From positions 1 to 43,599 of IMG/VR virus record IMGVR_UViG_3300033141_001722: a stretch of DNA of 43,599 bases. One strand, given 5' to 3'. Origin of the DNA: a virus. A program made the position numbers and the translations under genes. Of the stretch, positions 4,417 to 31,941 are shown piece after piece; within the stretch, counting starts at the first letter, position 1; the number at the start of each line of letters is the position of its first letter. The notes under the pieces were generated by a model. The model was not told the origin of the DNA and made no database searches. It saw nothing but the letters and a program-made list of their open reading frames with translations.

Positions 4417-4751
4417 ACAGGCGCTCATTCATTAAATCGCTAGTAACCCTTGTAGGAGGCATTATGTTACCTATACCAGGGTCTGCTGTAGCGCCAGCAT
4501 GCGATCCCATATCCTCTGTGCCCAATATACCTACTGGGTCATATTTGATTGACAATGCTGTAGCTGATGTAAACCCTGGGGGGTATTTGGTTCCATATAA
4601 GTTTGTAAAAAGAATTCTTAATGTAGTGGAGGGGTCAGCAGATGAGGAACAGTCGAAATCTAATACGTCTAACGTTTTCTATTTTGTTGTCGATGATCTT
4701 GTGCCTGACGGTGCCAGCGCTAATCACATTGGGGATAATCTCGGCGTCTAG
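4413..4751 (+). CDS. Exported protein with twin-arginine-like signal (112 aa)
   Basis: A GTG start at 4413 overlaps the previous stop (GTGA) and has GAGGGTGAG just upstream. The N-terminus reads MNRRSFIKSLVTLVGGIMLP then SAVA, matching the Tat motif (R-R-x-F-x-K), a moderately hydrophobic segment and an A-x-A cleavage site near residue 27. The mature part (about 85 residues) is soluble and not recognised. A secreted or periplasmic phage protein could act in superinfection exclusion or lysis timing, which is inference. The 3' third overlaps the next frame. Confidence 0.5.
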   Translation: MNRRSFIKSLVTLVGGIMLPIPGSAVAPACDPISSVPNIPTGSYLIDNAVADVNPGGYLVPYKFVKRILNVVEGSADEEQSKSNTSNVFYFVVDDLVPDGASANHIGDNLGV

Positions 4752-4851
4752 GGGAAGCTTGGGACAAGCGGTTTTGGCCGGGATCCTTACGGCATGGATC
4801 GTATCAATGGGTCTGATTACGCTGAAAAAAGTGCTGTCGAGACTTATTTGA
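4642..4851 (+). CDS. Small two-helix membrane protein (69 aa)
   Basis: GGAGGGGTC precedes the ATG at 4642. Two hydrophobic segments (LTFSILLSMILCLTVPALIT and LAGILTAWIVSMGLITL) flank a short polar loop (SRGSLGQ), and both termini are basic. The size and topology fit a holin-like or inner-membrane exclusion protein. It overlaps 4413..4751 by 110 nt in another frame. Two nested export-related frames are unusual; one may be spurious. It is remote from the endolysin, which weakens a holin reading. Confidence 0.45.
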   Translation: MRNSRNLIRLTFSILLSMILCLTVPALITLGIISASRGSLGQAVLAGILTAWIVSMGLITLKKVLSRLI

Positions 4852-4865
4852 GAGGGATAAGGGAT

Positions 4866-5095
4866 GCGTAACACCGTAACGATCCGTAACAGCCCCCGGA
4901 ATAGGGGTGCCGGGGACACAGTACGGGGGGTCGGCCCCTATTCCACGGGACGTTACGGGATGTTACAATTATAATATTAATATATTTATAGAAGACTCGT
5001 AGGGGGGATACCCATCGGGACCGTTCCGTGGTTCCGGGGCGTAACAGCGTGGAGGGCGGCGATTGTTACGGACTGTTACACTGTTACGGGAACAG
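4866..5095. repeat. Iteron/AT-rich region A, candidate origin or control region
   Basis: About nine GTAAC/GTTAC motifs in both orientations (typical forms CCGTAACA and TGTTACGG) fill 230 bp. An AT-rich tract (4965..4992) lies among them. GGAATAGGGG (4898..4907) and CCCCTATTCC (4935..4944) form a stem, and GGAATAGGGG is repeated in the right-hand region (42894..42903). This combination resembles iteron origins with an unwinding element; it also forms the leader of the radical SAM gene. Confidence 0.6.
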
Positions 5096-12443: not shown

Positions 12444-12499
12444 CAATAGGCATTTGCGTGTGTTCACTGGAGCAGCAATGTACAGGAGGTACACAGAGC

Positions 12500-14290
12500 A
12501 TGGATGACTGGATGTGGATAGGAGATGATCCACGTGATATACTCAACACCACCGGTAGGCAAGTGGCTCTGGACACGGAGACGACGGGGCTATATTTCCA
12601 GGATGATGTACTGGGCATGGGGCTGGCCTGGAGGGGGAGTGGCGGGGATTTGAAATCCGTGTACATAAAAGCACCCATTGGGCAGATGTCCCTTATGGAT
12701 ATGTCGCTGCCCGGCGGTACTATTAACATAAAGCAAGCCCTGGACGATATACACAAGAACCACACCATTATATATCATAATGAAGTGTTTGACAACAGGG
12801 CGTGCTTCCGCATTAGCGACTCCATGCCAAGGCTAATCACACACGATACCCAGCATATGGCCCCATTACTGGAGTGGCAGGGATCCGTCAGCCTAAGTAA
12901 TCTTTACGCCAAATATGTAGGGGATGAAATATCGGGGGAATACGTGAAGATGAAATCAAATAGACACAGACTAGAAAGTATACCAACTGAATTCGTTGCC
13001 GATTATGGGCGCGGCGATGCCGAGAATACATTAAAATTATTTGAGGTACTAAGGCCTCGGGTGGCCAGGGAGATTAGGAGATCCCTATATTCCGAGGATA
13101 GGGAGTATGCCCGATTGGTTATGCATCTTGTGCGGAGGGGGCTGAAACTCAATTTTAAGTGGTGCCAGCTAACAGAAGCCAGATTTAGCGGCAGGATGCG
13201 AGAAATCGAGAAGCGTCTAAAGTCGCTCGGGCTTAAGAATATTGGATCTAACCCATCTGTGGCGACCTTTCTATATAAAACAAGGGAAATACCCCAATAC
13301 TGCGCCGATATTACTAGAATAAGGAATGCCACGTGGCCAAACGGGGTGCCATCTGTAAGAAGTGATGTGTTGGAACATTACAGGGATGTAGAGGAAGTGA
13401 GGTTGATACTAGAATGGCGACAGCTGCAGGGGGCTATAGGCAAGTGGTTACACAAGTTTAGGGAACATGCTAGCATAGATGGTAAAGTTCATGCTCTGTT
13501 AGACCCATTTGGCACAATATCGGCCAGGATGGCCGCATCAAATCCGAATGTATTGGCAATACCCATAGAGGATAGAGGAGCGGCTTTTGGGTCTATGCGC
13601 GGGATGTTCTCGGAAAGAGGACCTGGCAAATACAATACGAAAAGGTTCGATAAGCTGTGGAGCGTGGATTACTCACAGATGGAAACGCGGTTGGCGGCTG
13701 TAATGGCTAGAGAGAGGGGCTTAATAGATGCACTGAATTCAGACACGGATCCTTACGTAGTTATGGCAAATAACCTGTGGGGAGACACGTCCCGTAGGCA
13801 GGAGGCTAAGAGGGGAACGCTGGCCAGTATATATGCCGCTGGGGCGAATACCCTATCAAATAGCATGAAAATACCAGTAGACCACGCGGCGGATATTCTA
13901 AAAGCCTTTAGATCGATATATCCCCGCATATCTCTTGCCACATCTTTAGCGGAGCGTGTAGCCAAGAAATCCGGACGAATAGAAATATTCACGGGGAGAA
14001 CACGGTATTTTGGGCCAAATGAGGAAAGCTACAAGGCGTTTAACCAGAAGGTGCAGACCACGGTAGCGGAGATAATAAAAAAGGCCATGCTGGATATTGA
14101 AGGATGGCGTCCCGGTATATTACGCTTGCAGGTGCACGACTCCGTTGTGTTCTTTTGCCCCAAGCAAACCCCCAACGACGTTGGGGGAGGCGAATTGGTG
14201 GAGGGGATAAAACTTATACTGGAGGATGCAGTGCCAGCGGAATATAGAGATGTGGTTAAATTTCCTACGGATGGAAAGCCATGGGAATAA
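12500..14290 (+). CDS. Family A DNA polymerase with 3'-5' exonuclease, DpoZ candidate (596 aa)
   Basis: Exonuclease motif I is D25-x-E27 (ALDTETTG), with motif II-like NEVFD and motif III-like YGRGDAENT. Polymerase motif A is VDYSQMETR (D390), motif B R433-x3-K437 then Y445, and motif C VHDSV (H546, D547). The position matching Phe762 of E. coli Pol I is Leu441, and YAAG replaces the usual YG. The ATG at 12500 follows AGGAGG; the upstream in-frame start at 12458 has none. In phages with 2-aminoadenine DNA, the family A enzyme DpoZ accepts dZTP and lies beside purZ, as here. Whether this enzyme prefers Z over A cannot be read from sequence. Confidence 0.9.
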   Translation: MDDWMWIGDDPRDILNTTGRQVALDTETTGLYFQDDVLGMGLAWRGSGGDLKSVYIKAPIGQMSLMDMSLPGGTINIKQALDDIHKNHTIIYHNEVFDNRACFRISDSMPRLITHDTQHMAPLLEWQGSVSLSNLYAKYVGDEISGEYVKMKSNRHRLESIPTEFVADYGRGDAENTLKLFEVLRPRVAREIRRSLYSEDREYARLVMHLVRRGLKLNFKWCQLTEARFSGRMREIEKRLKSLGLKNIGSNPSVATFLYKTREIPQYCADITRIRNATWPNGVPSVRSDVLEHYRDVEEVRLILEWRQLQGAIGKWLHKFREHASIDGKVHALLDPFGTISARMAASNPNVLAIPIEDRGAAFGSMRGMFSERGPGKYNTKRFDKLWSVDYSQMETRLAAVMARERGLIDALNSDTDPYVVMANNLWGDTSRRQEAKRGTLASIYAAGANTLSNSMKIPVDHAADILKAFRSIYPRISLATSLAERVAKKSGRIEIFTGRTRYFGPNEESYKAFNQKVQTTVAEIIKKAMLDIEGWRPGILRLQVHDSVVFFCPKQTPNDVGGGELVEGIKLILEDAVPAEYRDVVKFPTDGKPWE

Positions 14291-14328: not shown

Positions 14329-14568
14329 ATGACTCTTATAATCAACTACAGAGGGGTATTTGATAATCCAACAGTAGACGCCTTTTGTAAGCTACTAGAC
14401 ATGGAGGTGGAGGATTTTATCTGGGAGATTAGTGATAGCACGGCGGGCAAAATACGGGATACAGTATTAGAAAGGATTACCAATGGCACTCGGAAACCTA
14501 ACAATAGTGTACGGGGGTCAGTACGGGTCAGAAGGAAAGGGACAGATCGTAGCATATCTGTCAAGTAG
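14329..14568 (+). CDS. Small protein overlapping purZ (79 aa)
   Basis: A frame from ATG 14329 (preceded by AGGATGGAG) runs 86 nt into the purZ reading frame. It encodes an acidic helical first half (AFCKLLDMEVEDFIWEI) and a basic tail (RGSVRVRRKG). An alternative ATG at 14281 overlaps the polymerase stop. The frame is plausible because it fills the gap between polymerase and purZ, but the long overlap makes the tail suspect. Function not recognised. Confidence 0.4.
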   Translation: MTLIINYRGVFDNPTVDAFCKLLDMEVEDFIWEISDSTAGKIRDTVLERITNGTRKPNNSVRGSVRVRRKGTDRSISVK

Positions 14569-15583
14569 ACAACATCAAGCATATGCCGTACGGGTCGGGG
14601 GACCAAACGCAGGGCACACGTTCTTATTACCTAACGGGAAAGCCCAGGTCGTCCAAACTATACCATCAACGCTGTTTATATCCCCAGATACTATCGGCGT
14701 TATTGGGGCCGCGGGGCTAATTCATGAGGATATCTTCTTCAAAGAGGTTGAGCAGGTGTATGAATATACTGGTACAGCGCCCACCATATTACTAGATAGT
14801 AGTGTGGGTTTGATTACTCGCGGCCACATGTCCCGAGAGGGTATACTTAAGGGAACCATTGGATCCACCGGGGAGGGGGTAGGTGCCGCAACAGCGGATA
14901 GGGTAATGCGGGATCCGGATATGGTGGTGGGTTGTCCCACAAACCTAGACAGGTTAATGGATAGGATAGGCTCCAACCTACCGGCCTCTGCGGGATTGCT
15001 GCCGGGCATAGATACAGCAATGGTCCTGAATACTAAATTGCGGGATGGATTAGATGTGGTTATTGAAGGAACGCAGGGAGTAGCTTTGTCTCTATACACA
15101 TCCGGACACTATCCATTCTGTACAAGCCGGGAATGTACACCGCAGGGCATGTTGGCTCAGACCGGTATAGCCGCCGAGAATGCAAATAGTGTGGAAAAGA
15201 TTATGGTTGTGCGGACATATCCAATCCGGGTAGGGGGGCCATCCGGTCCATTGCCTGGGGAGATAACCTGGGATAGGTTATCTAAGAAGACCAATGGGTA
15301 TGTTAAAGAGCCAGAGATAACTACAGTCACCAAGAAACCTAGACGAATAGCTGAGATTGACTTCAAAGCATTAAGAAGAGCGGTTACTATAACCAGACCA
15401 ACCGCCATTGCCCTAACGTTCTTGGATTATTGGTTCCCGGAGATAGCGACAGCTACCAACCCTAGCGCCTTTACCCAAGAGGTGTGGGATAGCATCAACA
15501 ACGTAGAGGATTTGTTGGGTGTACCGGTGAAATTCTTAAGTACCGGTTTCGGTACGGTAATTCCATTAAGAATCACCCTATAG
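14483..15583 (+). CDS. purZ: PurZ-type adenylosuccinate synthetase relative (366 aa)
   Basis: The fold is that of PurA: the P-loop-like GGQYGSEGKGQ, VRVGGPNAGHTF, a TG-x-G-x-G segment (STGEGVGAA), EGTQG, the YPFCTSRE stretch and YPIRVGGPSGP. The decisive residue is Ser16, where PurA has its catalytic Asp (G-D-E-G-K-G); replacement of this Asp is the published hallmark of phage PurZ. PurZ condenses dGMP with aspartate to give the succinyl precursor of 2-aminoadenine (dZMP); host PurB and kinases complete dZTP. About 366 residues is shorter than typical PurA (about 430), as in PurZ. It lies between the family A polymerase and a MazG-like gene, the expected Z-DNA neighbourhood. Confidence 0.9.
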   Translation: MALGNLTIVYGGQYGSEGKGQIVAYLSSRQHQAYAVRVGGPNAGHTFLLPNGKAQVVQTIPSTLFISPDTIGVIGAAGLIHEDIFFKEVEQVYEYTGTAPTILLDSSVGLITRGHMSREGILKGTIGSTGEGVGAATADRVMRDPDMVVGCPTNLDRLMDRIGSNLPASAGLLPGIDTAMVLNTKLRDGLDVVIEGTQGVALSLYTSGHYPFCTSRECTPQGMLAQTGIAAENANSVEKIMVVRTYPIRVGGPSGPLPGEITWDRLSKKTNGYVKEPEITTVTKKPRRIAEIDFKALRRAVTITRPTAIALTFLDYWFPEIATATNPSAFTQEVWDSINNVEDLLGVPVKFLSTGFGTVIPLRITL

Positions 15584-15947: not shown

Positions 15948-16484
15948 GTGTTGATTTATATGGCCGGGGCAATAGACAGAGCGGATAAAAATGGTGCTTG
16001 GAGGAAGGAGTTACAAAGTACCATATTTCGTCAGTGGGATCCAACGTGTGGATGCGTAACCTTGTACAATCCATACGAGGCATTCAAGCTAACCGGTGTT
16101 CCCCTCATAAATCGGATGGATGCCGAAGCTATTGTAGCAATTAACAAACAGGCTCTATCGCGGGCGGACATTGTAATGGTACACTACACCCCCTTGGTGG
16201 AAACCTGGGGGACGGCTATAGAAACATTCGAAGCGTTCGAATTGGGCACCCCGGTCATTGTGTGGACATCCAATAAGGCAGCATTTGGCGCAGATGATCT
16301 TGAGGACATTACGCCAGCCTTTCTGCCTGTATACCTGCTTGCTCATGCATGGAAAGGGAGATGTTTTGTGGGGGCAAAGGCCGCTGTAAGGGAAATTAGC
16401 AAGGCCATCAGTAAGAGGAAAGCAAACAAACCCACGGATAGATGGAGATTTCGCTTAGCCCATAAGGTTAGGAGGACAACATGA
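15948..16484 (+). CDS. Nucleoside 2-deoxyribosyltransferase-like protein (178 aa)
   Basis: The N-terminus IYMAGAID followed by WRKEL, and the later INKQALSRADIVMV with GTAIETFEAFELGTPVIV, match the Rossmann-like nucleoside deoxyribosyltransferase superfamily. These enzymes exchange or hydrolyse the base of deoxynucleosides or deoxynucleotides; some members (DNPH1/Rcl type) cleave the glycosidic bond of dNMPs. GTG at 15948 is preceded by GGAGGAG. Placed between mazZ and dut, it may remove unwanted dNMPs or salvage bases during Z synthesis. The C-terminal 40 residues are basic (SKRKANKPTDRWRF) and unlike the usual family end. Confidence 0.65.
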   Translation: MLIYMAGAIDRADKNGAWRKELQSTIFRQWDPTCGCVTLYNPYEAFKLTGVPLINRMDAEAIVAINKQALSRADIVMVHYTPLVETWGTAIETFEAFELGTPVIVWTSNKAAFGADDLEDITPAFLPVYLLAHAWKGRCFVGAKAAVREISKAISKRKANKPTDRWRFRLAHKVRRTT

Positions 16485-16927
16485 CGCGCATACTGTTATG
16501 GCAAAAGGTATCTAAACTGGGGGGGTTGAAAAAGTCCCCCTACGAAGGGGATGCTGGAGTGGATATGGTAGTATCAGTACGCACCACTATATATTCGGCT
16601 GAACCGGAACCAACCAAGGTGCCGATGGGAATACGCATAGCCCTACCAAAAGATATGGCCGCCTTGGTGATTGGTAGATCAAGTGTTGCAAGGGAAGGGA
16701 TAGCAGTTGTGCCCACTGTAATAGATCAGGGGTTTAGAGGGCATATATACGCTCTTGTTTATTTGATAAATCCGCGTAAGGGGCATTGCAAGATAATCAA
16801 GGCCGGGGAAAGAATAGCCCAGTTACTGTTAATCCCATGCTTAGGGGACGGGTTGGTGTTAAAGGAGGTTAAACACCTGCCAGAGTCAGAGCGTGGTATC
16901 AGAGGATGGGGTTCATCGGGAGGATAG
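16481..16927 (+). CDS. dut: dUTP diphosphatase (148 aa)
   Basis: Five trimeric dUTPase motifs are visible: DAGVDM (24 to 29), GRSSVA (65 to 70), VIDQGFRGHI with catalytic D82, KAGERIAQLLLI (107 to 118) and the terminal RGIRGWGSSGG. Trp replaces the usual Phe in the last motif. Length and motif spacing fit the family. It hydrolyses dUTP to dUMP and pyrophosphate, keeping uracil out of phage DNA and supplying dTMP synthesis. It overlaps the previous gene by 4 nt and has GGAGG upstream. Together with the two preceding genes it forms a nucleotide-pool block. Confidence 0.85.
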   Translation: MTRILLWQKVSKLGGLKKSPYEGDAGVDMVVSVRTTIYSAEPEPTKVPMGIRIALPKDMAALVIGRSSVAREGIAVVPTVIDQGFRGHIYALVYLINPRKGHCKIIKAGERIAQLLLIPCLGDGLVLKEVKHLPESERGIRGWGSSGG

Positions 16928-18848: not shown

Positions 18849-19178
18849 TTACGTGCTACTGACATGGGATAGATTAATAACTCTGAATCTGAATTCGGCA
18901 TTTAGTTCCTCCCCGCCAGCATATGTGGCATTAACGGTTATGACGTGCGTTTCCTTGGTCTTTGTCTCGTCATGCATCTTTATGGCGTTTCCGGATAGAA
19001 CAATCTCCACCGACCCCCCGGTAGGGGATAGGGCGGTACTGCTAACAAGCTCCGCCCCGGTATCCTCATCGTGTACAGTATATGATGAGGTAGTCGGCTG
19101 GGCCAGATTGCCGTCCTTATCTTTGAATGAAGCGGTTACATAGGCTGTGGTTTTCTCGTTAACTGTGTCAAGTGCCAT
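18849..19178 (-). CDS. Small beta-rich tail-associated protein (109 aa)
   Basis: The sequence MALDTVNEKTTAYVTASFKD and the later EIVLSGNAIKMHDE, then HVITVNATYAGGEELNAEFR, is an Ig-like beta sandwich typical of small proteins encoded next to siphovirus fibre or baseplate genes. Its start overlaps the stop of the fibre gene (TAATG), suggesting translational coupling and a joint structural role. I cannot give a precise function. Confidence 0.5.
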   Translation of the reverse strand: MALDTVNEKTTAYVTASFKDKDGNLAQPTTSSYTVHDEDTGAELVSSTALSPTGGSVEIVLSGNAIKMHDETKTKETHVITVNATYAGGEELNAEFRFRVINLSHVSST

Positions 19179-21949
19179 TAGTCACACTCCGTAATATCGA
19201 ATTCTGCTAATCTGTTCTCCAAGTCGTCGAAGTCGGTGTCCCTAGATAACACACTGGACCATGTAGCACGTCTAGTGTAAAAATCGGAAAAACCCATACA
19301 GGCCAGTATTATTCTCCATATTAGATCCACTCTGTGTTCGTGTCTGATGTTATTTATCCCCAACATATGAGCTTGGGCAATAGATAAGCCATCCACTAGA
19401 TGCCCATGCCTCATATTGTTAATTACAAGCAGTATTGCGGGCGATACTATTACGTTGTTCGGGCGATGTAAGTGGCGCAATCCATCAATCTTTAGGTTGT
19501 GCTTCTGGGTGATAAATACTGGATTGATGTAGTGTATATGTCTCAGCCCCTGTATAACAAGCAGCGTGGCTCCGGTTAAGTTAATTTCACTAACGCGTTG
19601 CGTATGTCTCAGGTTGTATATTTGGAGATCGTGTGTTTGTGTAAGGACCAAAGGATCTACGTTATGGGCATGTCTAAGATTATTAACCAACAGGCTATAC
19701 GTTATTGGAAGTAGAATGTCCCCGGTTATGTGGTGGGTGTGGCGTAGGTCATCGACCCTGATATTATGGGATTGCGTTAATGATATATTTTGTATGTGGT
19801 GTGCGTGTCTGATACTATTAATGCCCAGATTATGTAACTGGGTAATGGAGAAGTCATCCAATCTATTTAAATGCCTAATATCATTTATGGTTAATAATAT
19901 CAGGCCCCCGAGATTAGATATACTACTTAATCTATGTTCGTGTCTTAACTCTCTGATTTGTAGATTATGTACTTGAGTTAGGCCTATGTCGCCTGTCGTT
20001 CTATGTAGATGTATGAGATCGGCGATGTTTAATAAGCTAAGTACCGATAATATTAAATCACCAATGCGGTGTGTGTGTTTCAGATCACTAACCTGCAGAT
20101 TATGTGCCTGCGTAAGATTTGTTGCGTCTATTCTATGTTCGTGCCTTAATCCGGATACCTGCAGATTGTGTAACTGGGCGACAATTACATCGTTCACCCT
20201 GTGTTGGTGTATAATGTCATTAATGTCCAATGTACTGGTTACTGATAGGGTTAGACCACCAATGCGGTGTATATGCCGTAGATCTTCAATCTGAAGACTA
20301 TGTGTCTGCGTAAGATCTATTCCGTCTATTCTATGCCCATGCGTTAATCCAGATACTTGCAGATTATGTGACTGTGTAAGGATCACATTATCTGTTCTGT
20401 GCGAGTGTATAAGATTAGCGATATTTAATATATTGGTTACTGATAAGATTGGATCTATAATGTGATGTAGATGCCTCAGACCATCGATTTGCAGATTGTG
20501 TGTCTGTGTAAGATGCACTCCATCTATTCTATGCTTATGTTTCAATCCAGTTATTTGTATATTATGTAATTGGGTTAGATTAATATCGGATGTCTTATGT
20601 AAATGACGAATGCTTTGTATGGCCAGGGTATCAGCATCAGAACCGATGCGGGTTTCCTCGGCCATAACGTCATCATAATACATGTTTATCCAGTTATCGG
20701 TTGTTGTCGTGCTGTGATAACCGCCCAACACTAAAGCATGGGCTGATAGCTCCGTACAATTACCTGATCCCTCCCAGGACCCCTGGGATGTATTATTTAC
20801 CCACATTTCTAGCTTGGCGTTTGTGCCGGAGCGATCATACATAATCTCGATTTCGTAATCGATGTCCTCAGAGAATGTCCACGTGATGCCGGTATTTACA
20901 AAATTCCCTGTACTATCAGTTGCATATACAGTAATAGTTGCCGTAGATGGATTAACATCACAGCGCCAGTATCGATTGGCTGATGAGATAGAGCTTTCGC
21001 TTAGCGTCCACAAACGCATGGCATTTGTATCATCCAGAGTGCCACGATCATCGCAGCGCCATCTCCACCAACAATAGACCTTATCCCCATTCGGCCATGT
21101 GATAAGTTTCCTCATATAGGCAGATGCTGTGACGGTAGTGGAGGATAACAAACAGCGACCGCTATAAACCCCCCCAAGCGCCGGGCTACTAACGACATCT
21201 AGGGTCACTGAACCGCTGGTGTATGTGTAATCCCAGTCACCAAGATCATTATTCTCAAAGTCACAAACTGCGGGGGAATTGGTAAACACGGTTGGAATTG
21301 AAAACTCAACACCACCCATTCTGTGTACATGCCTCAACCCGTCTACCTGTAGTTTATGTACCTGTGCCAATATTATATTGGATATTCTATGTAGATGTCT
21401 TGTGTCATCAATGCCTAGTCCGGATGATATATATGTAAAACGCGGTCGACGTGAGTAACTATCCAGCTGCGCGCCACCACTATCGCGAAGCTCAAAATCC
21501 CAATAATCGCCGGAGGATGCATTAGCAGTATCGATTTCAAGGCAAATACTAACTTCCCAATGATCCTGTCCGGCAAAATCAATACCATCAATTGCATCAC
21601 CAAGCAAGCCATTGCTATCAAGCTCTCCACCGGTGAACGTCAGAGATGATGTTGTAAGCCGATTGTTGTTGTCTGCATCCGCATCAGTGAACCAACTTGA
21701 AGGCGCTGCTCTCAACCCATCAGCGCGAGATTGATCAACGACAGTATAGGCACCTCCATTCTTTGCCGCATAAAGGTATCCACTCCAGTTGTTAGAAGCT
21801 TTCGCGTTTGTGACCTCAAGCTCAATCCGCAGGATTACATGGGTATCGTCACCAATTGAATAGTTAGCATTCTCAGCCGCAAGGCCCGTCCACCCAGACG
21901 TATCTTGGTAGAAGCGAAATCCATTCTGGTTGTAGATTGGGCTAGTCAT
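19178..21949 (-). CDS. Histidine-repeat tail fibre-like protein (923 aa)
   Basis: The N-terminal 175 residues are a beta-rich domain (NGFRFYQDTSGW at the start). A short repeat block follows, then a concanavalin-like domain of about 220 residues (DNWINMYYDDVMAEE near its end). Next is a long tandem array of about twenty 22-residue repeats of the form LTQ-x-HNLQI-x2-L-RH-x-H-R-I-x-D, and a 37-residue C-terminal cap. Repeats alternate between an LTQ-x-H type and an LSV type without the first His; most keep R/K-H-x-H. H-x-H motifs in trimeric phage fibres (T4 gp37 tip) bind iron along the axis. A receptor-binding fibre with a metal ladder is the inference. It overlaps both neighbours by a few bases. 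Confidence 0.75.
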   Translation of the reverse strand: MTSPIYNQNGFRFYQDTSGWTGLAAENANYSIGDDTHVILRIELEVTNAKASNNWSGYLYAAKNGGAYTVVDQSRADGLRAAPSSWFTDADADNNNRLTTSSLTFTGGELDSNGLLGDAIDGIDFAGQDHWEVSICLEIDTANASSGDYWDFELRDSGGAQLDSYSRRPRFTYISSGLGIDDTRHLHRISNIILAQVHKLQVDGLRHVHRMGGVEFSIPTVFTNSPAVCDFENNDLGDWDYTYTSGSVTLDVVSSPALGGVYSGRCLLSSTTVTASAYMRKLITWPNGDKVYCWWRWRCDDRGTLDDTNAMRLWTLSESSISSANRYWRCDVNPSTATITVYATDSTGNFVNTGITWTFSEDIDYEIEIMYDRSGTNAKLEMWVNNTSQGSWEGSGNCTELSAHALVLGGYHSTTTTDNWINMYYDDVMAEETRIGSDADTLAIQSIRHLHKTSDINLTQLHNIQITGLKHKHRIDGVHLTQTHNLQIDGLRHLHHIIDPILSVTNILNIANLIHSHRTDNVILTQSHNLQVSGLTHGHRIDGIDLTQTHSLQIEDLRHIHRIGGLTLSVTSTLDINDIIHQHRVNDVIVAQLHNLQVSGLRHEHRIDATNLTQAHNLQVSDLKHTHRIGDLILSVLSLLNIADLIHLHRTTGDIGLTQVHNLQIRELRHEHRLSSISNLGGLILLTINDIRHLNRLDDFSITQLHNLGINSIRHAHHIQNISLTQSHNIRVDDLRHTHHITGDILLPITYSLLVNNLRHAHNVDPLVLTQTHDLQIYNLRHTQRVSEINLTGATLLVIQGLRHIHYINPVFITQKHNLKIDGLRHLHRPNNVIVSPAILLVINNMRHGHLVDGLSIAQAHMLGINNIRHEHRVDLIWRIILACMGFSDFYTRRATWSSVLSRDTDFDDLENRLAEFDITECD
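19290..20635 (-). repeat. 66-bp tandem array encoding the 22-aa His repeats
   Basis: About twenty in-frame units of 66 bp (some 69 bp) encode the fibre repeats. Units are diverged at DNA level but recurrent words such as the complement of CTTAATCTAT/TGTGT are visible. A shorter block of the same units lies at 21300..21425. Confidence 0.8.
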
Positions 21950-24537: not shown

Positions 24538-24828
24538 TTATTCTCCTTTCCCGTTAATTTTCATCATTCCTCTCCCTATACCTCTTTCAGTGCCGCGGGC
24601 CGTAGCATCCTCTAAGGCCTTGGGCAACTCATCAAGTTTGGTGCATAGTTTGCTGGCGATGATCTCAGCGGTCTTCTCTGCTATCTGCCTTTCTCTTTCG
24701 AGTGCTGATTCGTGCGTTTTCTTGCTCACAATCCCTCCAGTCCAAAATAAATACAGGAAAACTGTCATAATACCCAGTGAACCTAGGTCTGGTAGGATGC
24801 TAATCACAGAGGACAAATCGCCGCTCAT
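24538..24828 (-). CDS. One-helix membrane protein next to endolysin, holin candidate (96 aa)
   Basis: A single N-terminal membrane segment (LGSLGIMTVFLYLFWTGGIV) is followed by a long charged coiled coil (THESALERERQIAEKTAEII). The start overlaps the endolysin stop (ATGA) and uses AAGGAG. Adjacent, translationally coupled small membrane proteins with endolysin are usually holins or pinholins; the soluble coiled-coil tail is long for one. This and 18427..18780 are competing holin candidates. Confidence 0.55.
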   Translation of the reverse strand: MSGDLSSVISILPDLGSLGIMTVFLYLFWTGGIVSKKTHESALERERQIAEKTAEIIASKLCTKLDELPKALEDATARGTERGIGRGMMKINGKGE

Positions 24829-25757
24829 ATTATCTCCTTTACCCGCATAGACATTTCCACATTAATATCGGGTTTGGGGGGAAAATCGGGTGTCGGCTGA
24901 GAATAATCTACCAGATACCGCTCAAGGGTCAGACCAGAAGATCTCTCCAGCCGGTTTCCGTCCACGCGCGTGTTTCCGGGCACTCCCATGACTCTACCAT
25001 CAAAATACGATCCGGATTGGTGCCAAGCCACATTTTCTCTAGGTATAATGTCTGGTTTGGCTGGTGGTCCGAGGTGCTCCCCGTAAATGGGTTTGGAGTA
25101 ATGCGCCAGTATCCACAGAACGTCCTTCATCCACGCCTGCTGCTCCGCATATGCTCGTATAAACCAATCTGCGGAATATATATCAGCCCTGCGATTGAAG
25201 TTGTTCTGCACCTCATTAACCATCTGGCCCATAACATAGCTAACTCTATTTGGGGCTTGATCGTTCTTTAGCTCCCAGTCCTCAATTATAGGACCCTCGC
25301 CCATATCTCCACCAACTAAATCAAATATCCTTTCTATATTATCTACTTGGCCTCTTACTGATTGAGACATATATGGGACGTGGTACATGGACCTTGGAAT
25401 ATTCGTATACATTTTTAGCGCTTTCCACGTTCTCTCGAAGCGCTTATCCACGTATCCCCACGAGATGCCCCCCCTAACGTAAATAAAGCGAATTCGGGGA
25501 TAGTTATATGCGGCCATAGCTTCCCAATCAGGTTCTACATCCCGACTACCCCCCCAATTATATTCGGATATGTCAATCCCGAACGGCTCCGTATTTTCTA
25601 TGTTAGGTAGGTACGGCTTATATGCCAGATTTGCTAATGCGATAATCGGAGCCTTTAACGTCTCCGATATCTTGCCCCTTACAGATCTTGGACGCCCGAC
25701 AGTCATTGAAGGCGCTCCAACTAATGTCCCCGATACGCTGTCTATTAGATTTGCCAT
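24825..25757 (-). CDS. GH25-like endolysin (310 aa)
   Basis: The core GIDISEYNWGG (GIDIS/Q opening), then FIYVRGGISWGYVD, RSMYHVPYMSQSV and PIIEDWEL matches the TIM-barrel GH25 muramidase family, where acidic residues after the first strand and on the IxDxE strand are catalytic (here D in GIDIS and E/D in IEDWE). An N-terminal segment of about 75 residues is extra and might be a binding or export region. TGGAGTTTTAAT precedes the ATG at 25757. It should cleave host peptidoglycan for lysis or entry. Being in the tail-gene cluster, a virion-associated role is also possible. Confidence 0.65.
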   Translation of the reverse strand: MANLIDSVSGTLVGAPSMTVGRPRSVRGKISETLKAPIIALANLAYKPYLPNIENTEPFGIDISEYNWGGSRDVEPDWEAMAAYNYPRIRFIYVRGGISWGYVDKRFERTWKALKMYTNIPRSMYHVPYMSQSVRGQVDNIERIFDLVGGDMGEGPIIEDWELKNDQAPNRVSYVMGQMVNEVQNNFNRRADIYSADWFIRAYAEQQAWMKDVLWILAHYSKPIYGEHLGPPAKPDIIPRENVAWHQSGSYFDGRVMGVPGNTRVDGNRLERSSGLTLERYLVDYSQPTPDFPPKPDINVEMSMRVKEII

Positions 25758-25758
25758 A

Positions 25759-25986
25759 TTAAAACTCCATTGACATAAGAGAAGCCAATCCCGGATCATA
25801 CACCTCAAACATAGGACCAATTTTCATATTTGTTGTGTATGTTTGCATTAACCCGGCATAGCTGGCGTTATATTTACCCATAGCCACTCCGGTTTTCTCG
25901 GATGATCCACTGGACGAGGCCGCCTGTTTTAGTATAAGATCTATGTCCCCGCCAGGGGTGGTTCTTTTACATCCCATTATTATCAT
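25759..25986 (-). CDS. Small protein (75 aa)
   Basis: No family is recognised. A Gly/Ser/Thr-rich start (MGCKRTTPGGDIDLILKQA) leads to a polar middle and a Met-rich end (YDPGLASLMSMEF). The start overlaps the preceding stop (ATGA); an in-frame ATG at 25977 is an alternative. The stop abuts the endolysin ribosome binding site, so it is probably co-translated with it. Confidence 0.45.
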   Translation of the reverse strand: MIIMGCKRTTPGGDIDLILKQAASSSGSSEKTGVAMGKYNASYAGLMQTYTTNMKIGPMFEVYDPGLASLMSMEF

Positions 25987-27713: not shown

Positions 27714-29698
27714 CAGCCCGATCCTCTTAAGGCTAGATAACAGAAATGTCCGTACAGCTCAAACGATAAAGCACAGCCTAATGTTGCTATGAATGGCCCT
27801 GTTCCCCAAGTACCGCCACTGGGAAAATGTCCCATAAGGAAATACAAATGGGTATCGGTCTCGGGTTCTACGCGCAGTGCGGGTCCGCCACGTCCCCATT
27901 CATCGCCGACATATTCATATGAACCAGATACTATCTTTTTTATCGTCCTATCTCTTAATACTCCGCCATCATCTTCAAGAACATTCCCTCCTCTAAGGGC
28001 TGAGGTGCCGTTTACGGAGTCGGTTAAAGGATCCTCAAATGTTACTCCATAGTCGTTTTGGATGGGTAACAGGACCAGATGATATATCTCCATTGTACCT
28101 GTGCCTGTGGTTCTTTCTGCATGTATTTCGAATATTAGATTACCCCCAGTATATACATCCGAAGAATCCGCTTGACCAAATGGGATGCTTATGGTACCAA
28201 GATCTACTATTTCCGCTCCCTCGTCCTCTCCGGACAAATCTACTACCGGAGTATCTTTTTTAGTGTCTGTGGTATTATTGCTATGTATATATGTTCTCAA
28301 CATCACCGCGGTATCCCCAGCACTCCCGGATCCCACCTGTTGACACACAATAAACGCTCTATAGTCGCCTACCCAATCCGCAAGTTTTCCCGTACCCGTG
28401 AACACAACCCTCTTAACCATTGTCGCTTCCCCACTAAACGACACAGCGCAATGATAGCCACCAGGAGACCCAGGGTCTGCCACTGCGGAGCTATCATCCC
28501 CATAAGTTGTTGCCCACCCGGAGGGGTTGTCATGGTTCCCAGCGTTTAAACCGGATACAAAGTCCCCCGGATCGTTCTTCAAGCCAATTAGTATCCTAGA
28601 TAGATTGGCGAAACCCTCGTTTTCGTCCCCTCCCGCTGGCGTAAACATTCTCATACACAAATATGGCCATGTATCCCCTTTTATCAGGGTGCTTGGTATT
28701 CTTACCTCGGGGGTTCTCTGCGCATAAGCGGTTGTTGAGCTTTTGGATGGCACGGTTGTAGTGCTTGTAATGGCAACTATAAATATTCTTAGCCAATATG
28801 CAAGTATACTGTTTATCGATATGGTTGCCCAATCGCTGGGGGGTTTTATATTAATAACCCAATCCCCAGTGGATTTAAATAATTCATCCTCATCCCCGTT
28901 TGGGTAATAGGTTATATCCGTACCACATACCAAATCGACCCAGCTGCCACCGTTCCAATATCTAGCTGCCAGGTTCCACTCGTAATCACCGGCAGTACCT
29001 ATATTAATTACCGCATGTTTCCATGGTCCATCGGTTGATCCTATATAACAACTATCATCAACAGCCGGGGATGATGGAAACAGGGACCCAGACGTAGTTA
29101 GTATATTGGGTCCGTACCCCGCACCATCATCATGAACATATATATGAGTAAGATCGATGTCGTCCCTGAAATTTGATACATGTACAAGAGTAGGGGACGC
29201 TGGTCCATCTGTTGGGTCAAGAACTAGAGCGGATCCCAAAGAATTAGGGGCAGACGATCTCCACACAAAACGCGCGATGCTTACTCCTTGTGTCTCTATT
29301 AGGTTAGCTATATCAAATGTAGTATCAAAAAAATCTGGGTTTGATACTTCTGGACTTTCATATATTTTAGCGTATCTAGCGTTTGTCTCATTTGTTGTTT
29401 GCTGCTCTATCCATACCGGGCCAAATTGTACCGGAAAGCGCCTGTGTAAGTAGGCTTGCTTTAATAGAGAAATTAGGGTGCGTGTTTGGCTGGCGGCGTT
29501 GTCGTGACTAGAGGCGCTAACATACAAATCCCAATGTTCTATAAACAGATCCTCGTCTATACTTTTTGAGGAATATAGCTGATGGGGTATAAATTTAGAT
29601 ACACCAAACCCTCCCCTGGTCGCTACAATGCCGGGGGACGAAGAGTCCAGAAGATCTACACTATCAACTCCATTAGTAACCTTAAAAGTCCTAGCCAC
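27713..29698 (-). CDS. Distal tail-like protein, large form (661 aa)
   Basis: The N-terminal 160 residues resemble siphovirus distal tail (Dit) proteins (ARTFKVTNGVDSVDLLD, then SLLKQAYLHRRFPVQFG). Beyond them lie beta-rich, possibly carbohydrate-binding segments (DISYYPNGDED-type loops, WLRIFIVAITS, LVLLPIQNDYG). This suggests an evolved Dit with added receptor-binding modules. A GTG start overlaps the tape measure stop. It should join the tail tube to the hub encoded next. Confidence 0.6.
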   Translation of the reverse strand: MARTFKVTNGVDSVDLLDSSSPGIVATRGGFGVSKFIPHQLYSSKSIDEDLFIEHWDLYVSASSHDNAASQTRTLISLLKQAYLHRRFPVQFGPVWIEQQTTNETNARYAKIYESPEVSNPDFFDTTFDIANLIETQGVSIARFVWRSSAPNSLGSALVLDPTDGPASPTLVHVSNFRDDIDLTHIYVHDDGAGYGPNILTTSGSLFPSSPAVDDSCYIGSTDGPWKHAVINIGTAGDYEWNLAARYWNGGSWVDLVCGTDITYYPNGDEDELFKSTGDWVINIKPPSDWATISINSILAYWLRIFIVAITSTTTVPSKSSTTAYAQRTPEVRIPSTLIKGDTWPYLCMRMFTPAGGDENEGFANLSRILIGLKNDPGDFVSGLNAGNHDNPSGWATTYGDDSSAVADPGSPGGYHCAVSFSGEATMVKRVVFTGTGKLADWVGDYRAFIVCQQVGSGSAGDTAVMLRTYIHSNNTTDTKKDTPVVDLSGEDEGAEIVDLGTISIPFGQADSSDVYTGGNLIFEIHAERTTGTGTMEIYHLVLLPIQNDYGVTFEDPLTDSVNGTSALRGGNVLEDDGGVLRDRTIKKIVSGSYEYVGDEWGRGGPALRVEPETDTHLYFLMGHFPSGGTWGTGPFIATLGCALSFELYGHFCYLALRGSG

Positions 29699-31941
29699 TA
29701 TACCAGCCTTTCCAATAGATTTACCAATGTACGAAGATCCATTTCCCTGTTCACAGTTATCTGCCCAATATGTAAACCCCGGCTATCATCCCCAGCTGAT
29801 TCTCCAGCGGGTGTGGGCGTCGCTAAAGGCTCTGGGTATTGCACCATACTGCCCCCCATATCCGGCAGAGTGTTCACTACGGTATTTTGAGCAGAGAATG
29901 ATGGATGTAAATCACCTACAAAACTATCCACCATTGCGGATACATTCGCATTAGCCAGCGTGTCCTCCCATCCCAGCAACAGACCTTCGCCAAGATGAAT
30001 GCCCATTTCTCTAGTCACCTTTGACGGACTCTCCACCCCCAATTTTTCGTTTATTCTGTCTATTAGATGGTCCAGAAGCGCTAGGTACTTGGCCTCGTCC
30101 TTTTTTAATCTAGCAAATAAACTGTTACCTAGAGCGCCCTGTAAGTGTACACCCGCTAGCTCCATCTTTAGTGCGCCATCAGTATTAGCCCACACAGCGG
30201 CAGGATCGGCATATGCCCTATTCAGAGTGTCAACCATCTCTTGTGACACTCCCTCAATCTCTGTATATAGCCCATTCCTCATACCATCAAGCATGCCCCC
30301 AGCTATATCTTCGCCATGGGTAAACGCGAATTGTTCAGCATTTATTTGGCTAAGAATATCCACCATGGACAGCGACTCGGCGAAGCCTTGAAATATTTCT
30401 GTATCGGCTAATTCGTCCGCCAGTTCCTTAAATACCTCTACCATACCAGCTAACCGTGGGCCAGGATCCTCCCCTGACAACACGTCGGACAGTGTACCGA
30501 TAGCGGTAGTAAGTAGCACCAGACCCCCAATAACCCCTCCGCTACCTAACGTTAGCAAGAATTCTGTTATTTCCGCAAATGCTTCGCTCGCGCCACCTGT
30601 CCACCATTCCTCCATATTGTCCAAAGTATCGGTTATATCTTGCATAATGATGGGAGCGGCTGATTCTGACATGCTGGTAAGGGAATCTACGAAGTTTTCC
30701 CACATAGGCAGGAAGGCCGATATCCCTTCACTCTGTATTGTACCAAGACTATTTAGCCAATTTGGCAGCTCTTCCTTTATGGGGCCTATCCACGCATCCG
30801 CCAATCCCGCCATACCATCCGATAGATTCTCAAACGTAGTAACGACACTATCAATCTTACCGGCTATGGTGGGTATATCCAGCATATCGATCATGCCTAA
30901 ATGGGATAGCAGATTAGCTATAGCCGTCCCCGGAGATATAATCCCGCTACCTAGATATCCAAGGGCATCGGATAAATATCCAAAATTTTCAGCGGCGTCA
31001 GGGATGCCCTCTACTAGTGGGGAGAGCATGGCCCCAATCGCCTTACCAACCCCCTCCATACCGGACATGAACTTCTCACTCGTAAATAGGTCAAACAGGG
31101 ATGATAGCCCCGGATGTAGAGCATTCGCTATTCCATCAAATACTCTTATCATGTTCAGGTCTTTTACATCTTTAAAATTCGCGATAAGGCCCCACCAAGT
31201 TTGAACAGCTCTTTCGGAAGCGCCATCAAAGCGCTGCATCCAATCTACGATTGCGGCCAAAGCGGGTTCGGCTGGCACCAGACCCTTTCGTATCATGTCC
31301 TCTAATTCACCTGTGGTTACATTAAATGCTTTGGCTACAATATCCCGCACCGGGATACCGACATTGATTAGCTGCCGTATCTCCTCACCCGCCAACCTTC
31401 CACGCTGTCTAACCTGCCCCAGCGCCAAGCCTAATCTCTCTAGCACTTGGGACCCAAACCCTGTAGCAGCGGCGAAATCCATAATCTGGCCAGTCAGGAC
31501 TTGCGCTTCCTTCGTACTAAAGCCATAGGCCCGAGTAAGTCTGAACATCTGGTTAACATCTTCTGCAGTAAATGGGGAGGCTAATGATAGTTTTATCACC
31601 CACCCCATTAACTCCTCAGCCTTTTCCTTGGCCCCCGCTATAGCATCTCTAAATTCTATTGTGTCCCTCCACATGGGACCAAGATCAACCTTCACATCGG
31701 TTAGAAGTTCAGCTCTCGACATTTCCTCCAGGGAAAATTTTATGCGATCGAACCATTCGTAGGCCTCCGCAGCCTGTTTGGTCATGTCAAACAACCCGCG
31801 GGCTATGCGCTCAAACGTCCTGAACGCTATTAGTCCTCCGGCTATCGTGGCAATTCTGCCCAGGGCAGTACCGACTCTACCCAAAGCCCCTGACGCCTTA
31901 TCAACGCCGCGTATTTCGATGGTTACTTCGTCTCTGGCCAT
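29698..31941 (-). CDS. Tail tape measure protein (747 aa)
   Basis: The start MARDEVTIEIRGVDKASGAL and the glycine/alanine helix that follows (ALGRIATIAGGLIAFRTFE) are typical of tape measure proteins, as are later hydrophobic segments (GGVIGGLVLLTTAIGTLSDV). It lies directly after the frameshifted chaperones and before the distal tail gene. Tape measure length sets tail length; 747 residues suggests a tail of roughly 110 nm if about 1.5 angstrom per residue applies. It overlaps the chaperone gene by 19 nt. Confidence 0.85.
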   Translation of the reverse strand: MARDEVTIEIRGVDKASGALGRVGTALGRIATIAGGLIAFRTFERIARGLFDMTKQAAEAYEWFDRIKFSLEEMSRAELLTDVKVDLGPMWRDTIEFRDAIAGAKEKAEELMGWVIKLSLASPFTAEDVNQMFRLTRAYGFSTKEAQVLTGQIMDFAAATGFGSQVLERLGLALGQVRQRGRLAGEEIRQLINVGIPVRDIVAKAFNVTTGELEDMIRKGLVPAEPALAAIVDWMQRFDGASERAVQTWWGLIANFKDVKDLNMIRVFDGIANALHPGLSSLFDLFTSEKFMSGMEGVGKAIGAMLSPLVEGIPDAAENFGYLSDALGYLGSGIISPGTAIANLLSHLGMIDMLDIPTIAGKIDSVVTTFENLSDGMAGLADAWIGPIKEELPNWLNSLGTIQSEGISAFLPMWENFVDSLTSMSESAAPIIMQDITDTLDNMEEWWTGGASEAFAEITEFLLTLGSGGVIGGLVLLTTAIGTLSDVLSGEDPGPRLAGMVEVFKELADELADTEIFQGFAESLSMVDILSQINAEQFAFTHGEDIAGGMLDGMRNGLYTEIEGVSQEMVDTLNRAYADPAAVWANTDGALKMELAGVHLQGALGNSLFARLKKDEAKYLALLDHLIDRINEKLGVESPSKVTREMGIHLGEGLLLGWEDTLANANVSAMVDSFVGDLHPSFSAQNTVVNTLPDMGGSMVQYPEPLATPTPAGESAGDDSRGLHIGQITVNREMDLRTLVNLLERLV

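Follow-up and report, generated by a model that had tools for sequence, protein, structure and literature searches.

Phage tail fibres are usually trimers. Octahedral iron sites formed by the HxH motifs of three chains are established in gp37 of phage T4, in R2 pyocin fibres and in spike proteins (PMC6116203; PMC6957217), and both histidines of the gp37 pair H929/H931 are essential (PMC6957217). Another fibre protein, gp12 of Alteromonas phage R22Y, carries four HxH motifs approximately 22 aa apart, and six bound ions have been proposed for it (PMC11705849). The reading of HxH as an iron-binding motif is used in proposals of phages as iron-binding ligands.

The protein described here is encoded in a 43.6-kb virus record of IMG/VR, which was analysed over its full length and is referred to as the window. 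An initial annotation of this DNA had regarded the protein as a tail fibre with about twenty histidine-containing repeats and, in analogy to T4 gp37, as a trimeric needle with a ladder of axial metal ions.

Results

The repeat protein (923 aa, ATG start, according to the ORF list and its translation) is encoded at positions 19178-21949 of the window on the minus strand, as are all of its parts given below. The gene shares a few bases with each of its two neighbours, in an operon-like arrangement. The N-terminal domain (residues ~1-171; 21437-21949) is predicted to be beta-rich; it yielded no Pfam match and, in a set of 187 segments, a weak match to the N-terminal parts of two other repeat-array proteins, L023 (phmmer E 6e-6) and L017 (6e-4). 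It is followed by a first repeat block of two units with the motifs RHLH and RHVH (residues ~172-217; 21299-21436), recognized by the HxH spacing, and by an inserted domain (residues ~218-440; 20630-21298), which has the look of a jelly roll by eye. For this insert, which the initial annotation had termed concanavalin-like, a label based on its look, Pfam gave no match to a ConA-like, LamG or any other family, PDB sequences nothing better than E 0.054, and phage records and viral contigs no relative. The second repeat block (residues ~441-882; 19304-20629) comprises 20 units of 22-23 aa, delimited by PSSM/DP tiling, by the HxH spacing and by an inner DNA period of 198 bp (66 aa, three units), which was detected by TRF at 20093-20574. 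A short Arg-rich tail (19181-19303) forms the C-terminus. Searches with this tail gave no significant match, and short Arg-rich tails also follow the arrays of many relatives, e.g. L115, L120 and L012.

The 22 units, two before the insert of ~220 aa and 20 after it, contain 20 exact HxH motifs and two degenerate ones (RHLN and RHTQ). Three gaps between units measure 23 aa and one, across the insert, 242; all other spacings are 22 aa, and for 14 of the 20 HxH motifs the next one is found exactly 22 residues further. Residue shuffles of the protein (5,000) gave a maximum of 13 HxH motifs and of two pairs at spacing 22. Arg or Lys precedes the first His in 16 of the 20 motifs. A second motif, [TA]QxH, is present in 13 units, mostly in the order of two units with and one without it (AAB AAB AAB...). 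All these features, namely about twenty 22-residue His repeats with near-invariant spacing, R/K-H-x-H in most and an additional TQ-x-H in many of them, and a domain between two repeat blocks, had been pointed out in the initial annotation and held up on counting. The units share 38% identity on average, so that the array appears to be old and not freshly amplified.

Terminase, portal, head protease, major head protein and a tape-measure-like protein are all encoded on the minus strand of the window. The tape-measure-like gene (29698-31941, minus strand; PHROG tail length tape measure, E 5e-19) marks the tail module, and the repeat gene lies downstream of it on the same strand and in the same block. 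The next gene (18849-19178, minus strand) encodes a small protein of 109 aa, a possible baseplate partner with a weak match to phrog_912 (E 8e-4). A small ORF is located at the equivalent place in the relative L004; a PHROG search with it gave no match. The repeat gene adjoins Dit and minor tail genes in the relative L007 and is found near portal and terminase genes in L004 to L006. Because of its position in the head and tail strand block, and beside tail or head genes in relatives, the 923-aa protein is likely a tail-associated virion protein, in line with the elongated tail component that had been suggested for it. A gene at 24825-25820 (minus strand), which lies between those of the tape measure and the repeat protein, matches a PHROG endolysin (E 1e-6). 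A gene for a PurZ-like adenylosuccinate synthetase (14483-15583, plus strand; phrog_1211, E 7.6e-67) adjoins those of a family A DNA polymerase (12458-14290) and a dUTPase (16481-16927); judging from these three genes, the phage may have 2-aminoadenine (Z) DNA.

Relatives of the repeat were sought in IMG/VR contigs by means of a DNA pattern of two successive LTQxH units, which is blind to the HxH positions and matched at least 119 stretches. Four loci were supplied by a composite repeat query and all others by this pattern; searches for related loci with the whole 923-aa protein, the mixed alignment A1 or the Microcystis phage protein (see below) as query gave no match. At least 97 loci contain ORFs in which [TSAGD]QxH motifs recur periodically, and PSSM and chain tiling delimited at least 1,085 units in at least 91 distinct proteins (about 1,100 units in ~90 proteins). 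In the proteins among the matches listed, 1,003 of 1,100 unit spacings are exactly 22; the range among these matches is 20-24, with rare turn insertions and modular units. Numbered from the LTQ strand, the consensus is L-T-Q-x-H-x-L-x-V-x-D-A-x-H-x-H-x-A-D-x-V-x, with HxH at positions 14 and 16. In many proteins among the matches listed, the array is preceded by at least 200 residues of non-repeat sequence and frequently followed by a short tail rich in Arg. The sole match in 50,697 phage records was a hypothetical protein of Microcystis phage Mae-JY22 (XAI95683.1; 31.5% identity, E 8e-19), which has the same 22-aa repeat, but differs from the 923-aa protein in its ~8 units, its annotated length of 225 aa and the lack of an insert.

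No convincing match of the repeat was obtained in Pfam, PHROG, NCBIfam or PDB, and no PDB chain matched the family profile with E <= 1. The PHROG and NCBIfam matches of family members, and most of their Pfam matches, were scattered single hits in unrelated families and were discounted as noise arising from the repetitive sequence. Pfam NosD matches were obtained for 12 of 64 members (best E 6e-9) and may reflect generic beta-repeat composition; the 923-aa protein itself had no Pfam match at the gathering score, NosD (PF05048) included. The repeat is a real, widespread and unnamed viral beta-repeat, found in at least about 95 uncultured-virus loci and one cultured-phage relative, and in none of the solved structures or profile libraries, so that such stalks go unannotated. 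The search for it in other metagenomic fibres, which the initial annotation had proposed, yielded at least about 90 uncultured-virus proteins. In three loci (L107, L089 and L096), the repeat forms arrays in two adjacent co-directional ORFs; in L107, one of these holds 19 HxH units and the other 24. The repeat also turns up at 4686-4889 of JADZDL010000482.1 (L127), a contig attributed to a Planctomycetota MAG; this may be a prophage or a binned virus.

The columns of the repeat differ strongly in charge. Among the matches listed, charged residues account for 3% or less in columns 1, 3, 5, 7, 9, 12, 14, 16, 18 and 21, for 64-78% in the turn columns 11 and 19 and for up to 16% in most others. The uncharged HxH positions 14 and 16 are part of the alternating face that also bears the hydrophobic core columns, and the charge alternation thus places HxH and QxH on a core-like face. 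A regular short repeat, inward aliphatic columns and an uncharged core, as expected for a beta-solenoid, are all found. His side chains on the surface had been named beforehand as the observation that would speak against an axial ladder; the alternation, from which the direction of the side chains was deduced, instead suggests that the His columns point inward.

Position 14 is nearly always occupied by one type of residue per protein (His in 52, Gln in 23, Ser in 8 and hydrophobic residues or Thr in 5 of 88 proteins among the matches listed). No His at either 14 or 16 was found in 31 of these 88 proteins, a share that is, if anything, underestimated, since the tiling matrix favours His at both positions. 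Units with both His make up at least 90% in 14 of the 88, with a largest count of 24 in one ORF, and arrays consisting mostly of HQ (L004), HV (L039) or HL (L103) units exist as well. The agreement within proteins above that between proteins (kappa) was 0.78 at position 14, 0.54 at 16, 0.49 at 18 and 0.47 at 12, compared to 0.15-0.17 at the outward neighbours 13, 15 and 17. Adjacent units agreed to the same extent as distant ones (0.87 and 0.86 at position 14; 0.67 and 0.66 at 16). Recent tandem duplication was therefore rejected as the sole cause of the uniformity: the outward columns are variable and distant units are as alike as neighbours, which argues that the ladder is kept uniform along the array. 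Across the repeat family, the ladder is, by these column statistics, chemically interchangeable. Units lacking QxH (positions 3/5) are rarely adjacent (30 pairs vs 66 +/- 6 in shuffles, family-wide), and most arrays of the family begin with such a unit.

In proteins of the His14 type, His14 was present in 455 of 472 units with His16 (96.4%) and in 200 of 209 units without it (95.7%, P=0.67), a comparison in which units of one protein are not independent and which reflects evolution across relatives rather than a direct assay of the 923-aa protein. His14 is kept in arrays with Gln, Leu or Val at position 16 (L004, L039, L103). The frequency of His14 is thus independent of His16, which indicates that the two histidines of HxH do not evolve jointly as a chelating unit, and the joint presence of both histidines on which gp37-type chelation depends does not appear to be a family-wide property. 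The QxH motif is about equally frequent beside QQ (61%) and HH (62%) in the units among the matches listed and so behaves unlike a third ligand; a three-His site composed of QxH and HxH was ruled out on these grounds. A metal function restricted to lineages with all-HH proteins, such as the 923-aa protein, may be compatible with the family statistics.

For structure prediction, ten units (residues 441-660 of the window protein, 220 residues) were submitted to AlphaFold2 with an alignment of 64 sequences. The best model showed regular strands with a period of 22 residues in a single-chain parallel beta-helix (pLDDT 76, pTM 0.64); it was the only one of five to reach this value, the others having pLDDT of 58, 53, 33 and 31. 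A single-sequence run with the whole 923-aa protein gave no confident fold (pLDDT 41) and was set aside. VIA-align related the best model to right-handed parallel beta-helices (Z 16-18.6 over 210-220 of 220 residues), among them a phage depolymerase (6tku, Z 18.6), NosD (7osf, Z 18.1) and the Sf6 tailspike (Z 17). In PDB and BFVD, no Foldseek match fell below E 0.001, and the best E against solved members was above 0.1, beside the VIA Z of up to 18.6 for the same pLDDT-76 model. For perfect repeats, AlphaFold2 has a known tendency to produce false beta-solenoids with high confidence (PMC11795689). In contrast to such artefacts, the repeat is imperfect here, the single-sequence run remained without a confident fold and the supposed core lacks the buried charges by which artefacts are marked. 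The model tentatively suggests a solenoid topology for the repeat array.

Discussion

With moderate confidence, the 923-aa protein is regarded as an adhesin-like tail component with a beta-solenoid stalk, in which a swappable internal His ladder would not require metal. The array would fold into a long, rigid beta-stalk, for which a beta-solenoid (parallel beta-helix) is the most likely form, each turn corresponding to one 22-residue unit. Strand 1 would comprise positions 21-9 (V-x-L-T-Q-x-H-x-L-x-V) and strand 2 positions 12-18 (A-x-H-x-H-x-A), both alternating between inward and outward residues, with the ten columns of lowest charge (see Results) facing inward. Positions 14 and 16 would then represent an internal ladder along the whole stalk, filled with one kind of residue per protein, i.e. 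His in the 923-aa protein and Gln, Ser/Thr or hydrophobic residues in relatives. Such a ladder would pack and form hydrogen bonds, and the fold would need no metal. The most likely role of the protein is that of a stalk bearing binding domains; the N-terminal and the inserted domain are the likely ligand-binding parts and might mediate receptor binding.

Some further points speak against the solenoid. Direct stacking of units should give local dependence, whereas adjacent units are hardly more alike at positions 14 and 16 than distant ones, and a trimeric beta-fibre with an alternating core would account for many of these sequence patterns as well. Such a metal-free trimer (similar to a triple beta-spiral), in which the alternating face would be the trimer core and the His, Gln, Ser or hydrophobic rungs interchangeable layers, is somewhat unlikely, but is the most probable of the alternatives. 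It accords with the trimeric state of most tail fibres, with column patterns that fit any long beta-core, with modular units that tolerate rare turn insertions (spacing 20-24) and with the missing local dependence between rungs. On the other hand, Pfam revealed no trimerisation or chaperone domain in ten full-length relatives, and the monomer prediction closes each unit on itself. Clearly less probable is the trimeric needle of the initial annotation, in which, on the model of T4 gp37, each unit would hold one iron bound by six His from the HxH motifs of three chains, up to ~20 ions in total. Three-chain iron sites of this kind are precedented in gp37, R2 pyocin fibres and spikes and have likewise been proposed for R22Y gp12, and the 14 relatives with at least 90% HH units would suit it. 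The repeat has, however, no sequence relation to gp37, R22Y gp12 or any solved structure; His14 persists without His16, whereas gp37 needs both H929 and H931; and 31 of 88 relatives lack His at both 14 and 16. Together with the single-chain beta-helix model, the uncoupled His pair leaves the axial metal ladder unsupported and weakened, though not refuted.

A one-chain solenoid in which the HxH of strand 2 faces the QxH of strand 1, giving a row of internal sites for metal or protons, is highly improbable. Designed cross-beta HxH peptides (synthetic amyloids) do bind zinc (PMC10008563), and in a two-sheet model His5 of the A-type units would come to lie near His14 and His16. The distance between cross-beta layers is too long for shared binding (PMC10008563), however, and the equal QxH frequencies beside QQ and HH indicate no co-selection of a three-His site. 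Returning to the metal-independent solenoid stalk, a more far-reaching proposal can be made, which we consider speculative and rather improbable: the family might constitute an extensive and hitherto undescribed class of viral tail stalks, all based on one 22-residue beta unit, with a continuous, two-residue-wide internal ladder re-set per protein (His, Gln, Ser or hydrophobic), the all-His versions with up to ~24 HxH rungs acting as a metal- or proton-responsive row. As judged from the sequence data, the histidines of the ladder look more like replaceable core filling than like an iron-binding chain, and an HxH motif in a phage fibre should not by itself be taken as evidence of iron binding.

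Compared to known systems, the 923-aa protein shares with T4 gp37 its origin from a phage, the presence of many HxH motifs (20 here) on an elongated, beta-structured part and a possible role in receptor binding. The motifs of gp37 are irregularly spaced in a Gly/Ser/Thr-rich sequence, whereas the 923-aa protein has strict 22-aa units, aliphatic core columns and a second motif, QxH, and HxH is dispensable within its family. The analogy to gp37 drawn in the initial annotation is thus not one of homology (hhalign probability 0.1 over 6 columns). R22Y gp12 resembles the protein in HxH motifs ~22 aa apart in a phage fibre (PMC11705849), but its repeat reads HxHxIxDIxGL...LDxK; hhalign found no relation, and homology was ruled out. 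The 923-aa protein may still work like gp37 or R22Y gp12, although the coupling test speaks against its membership in these groups. The best structural matches of the predicted model are right-handed parallel beta-helices of the NosD type, to which some family members also have profile matches, in contrast to the 923-aa protein itself. To our knowledge, an internal His/Gln ladder and the LTQxH motif are not features of NosD. With His, Gln, Ser and hydrophobic ladders on one scaffold, the family provides a natural comparison for studying the function of buried HxH motifs in viral fibres.
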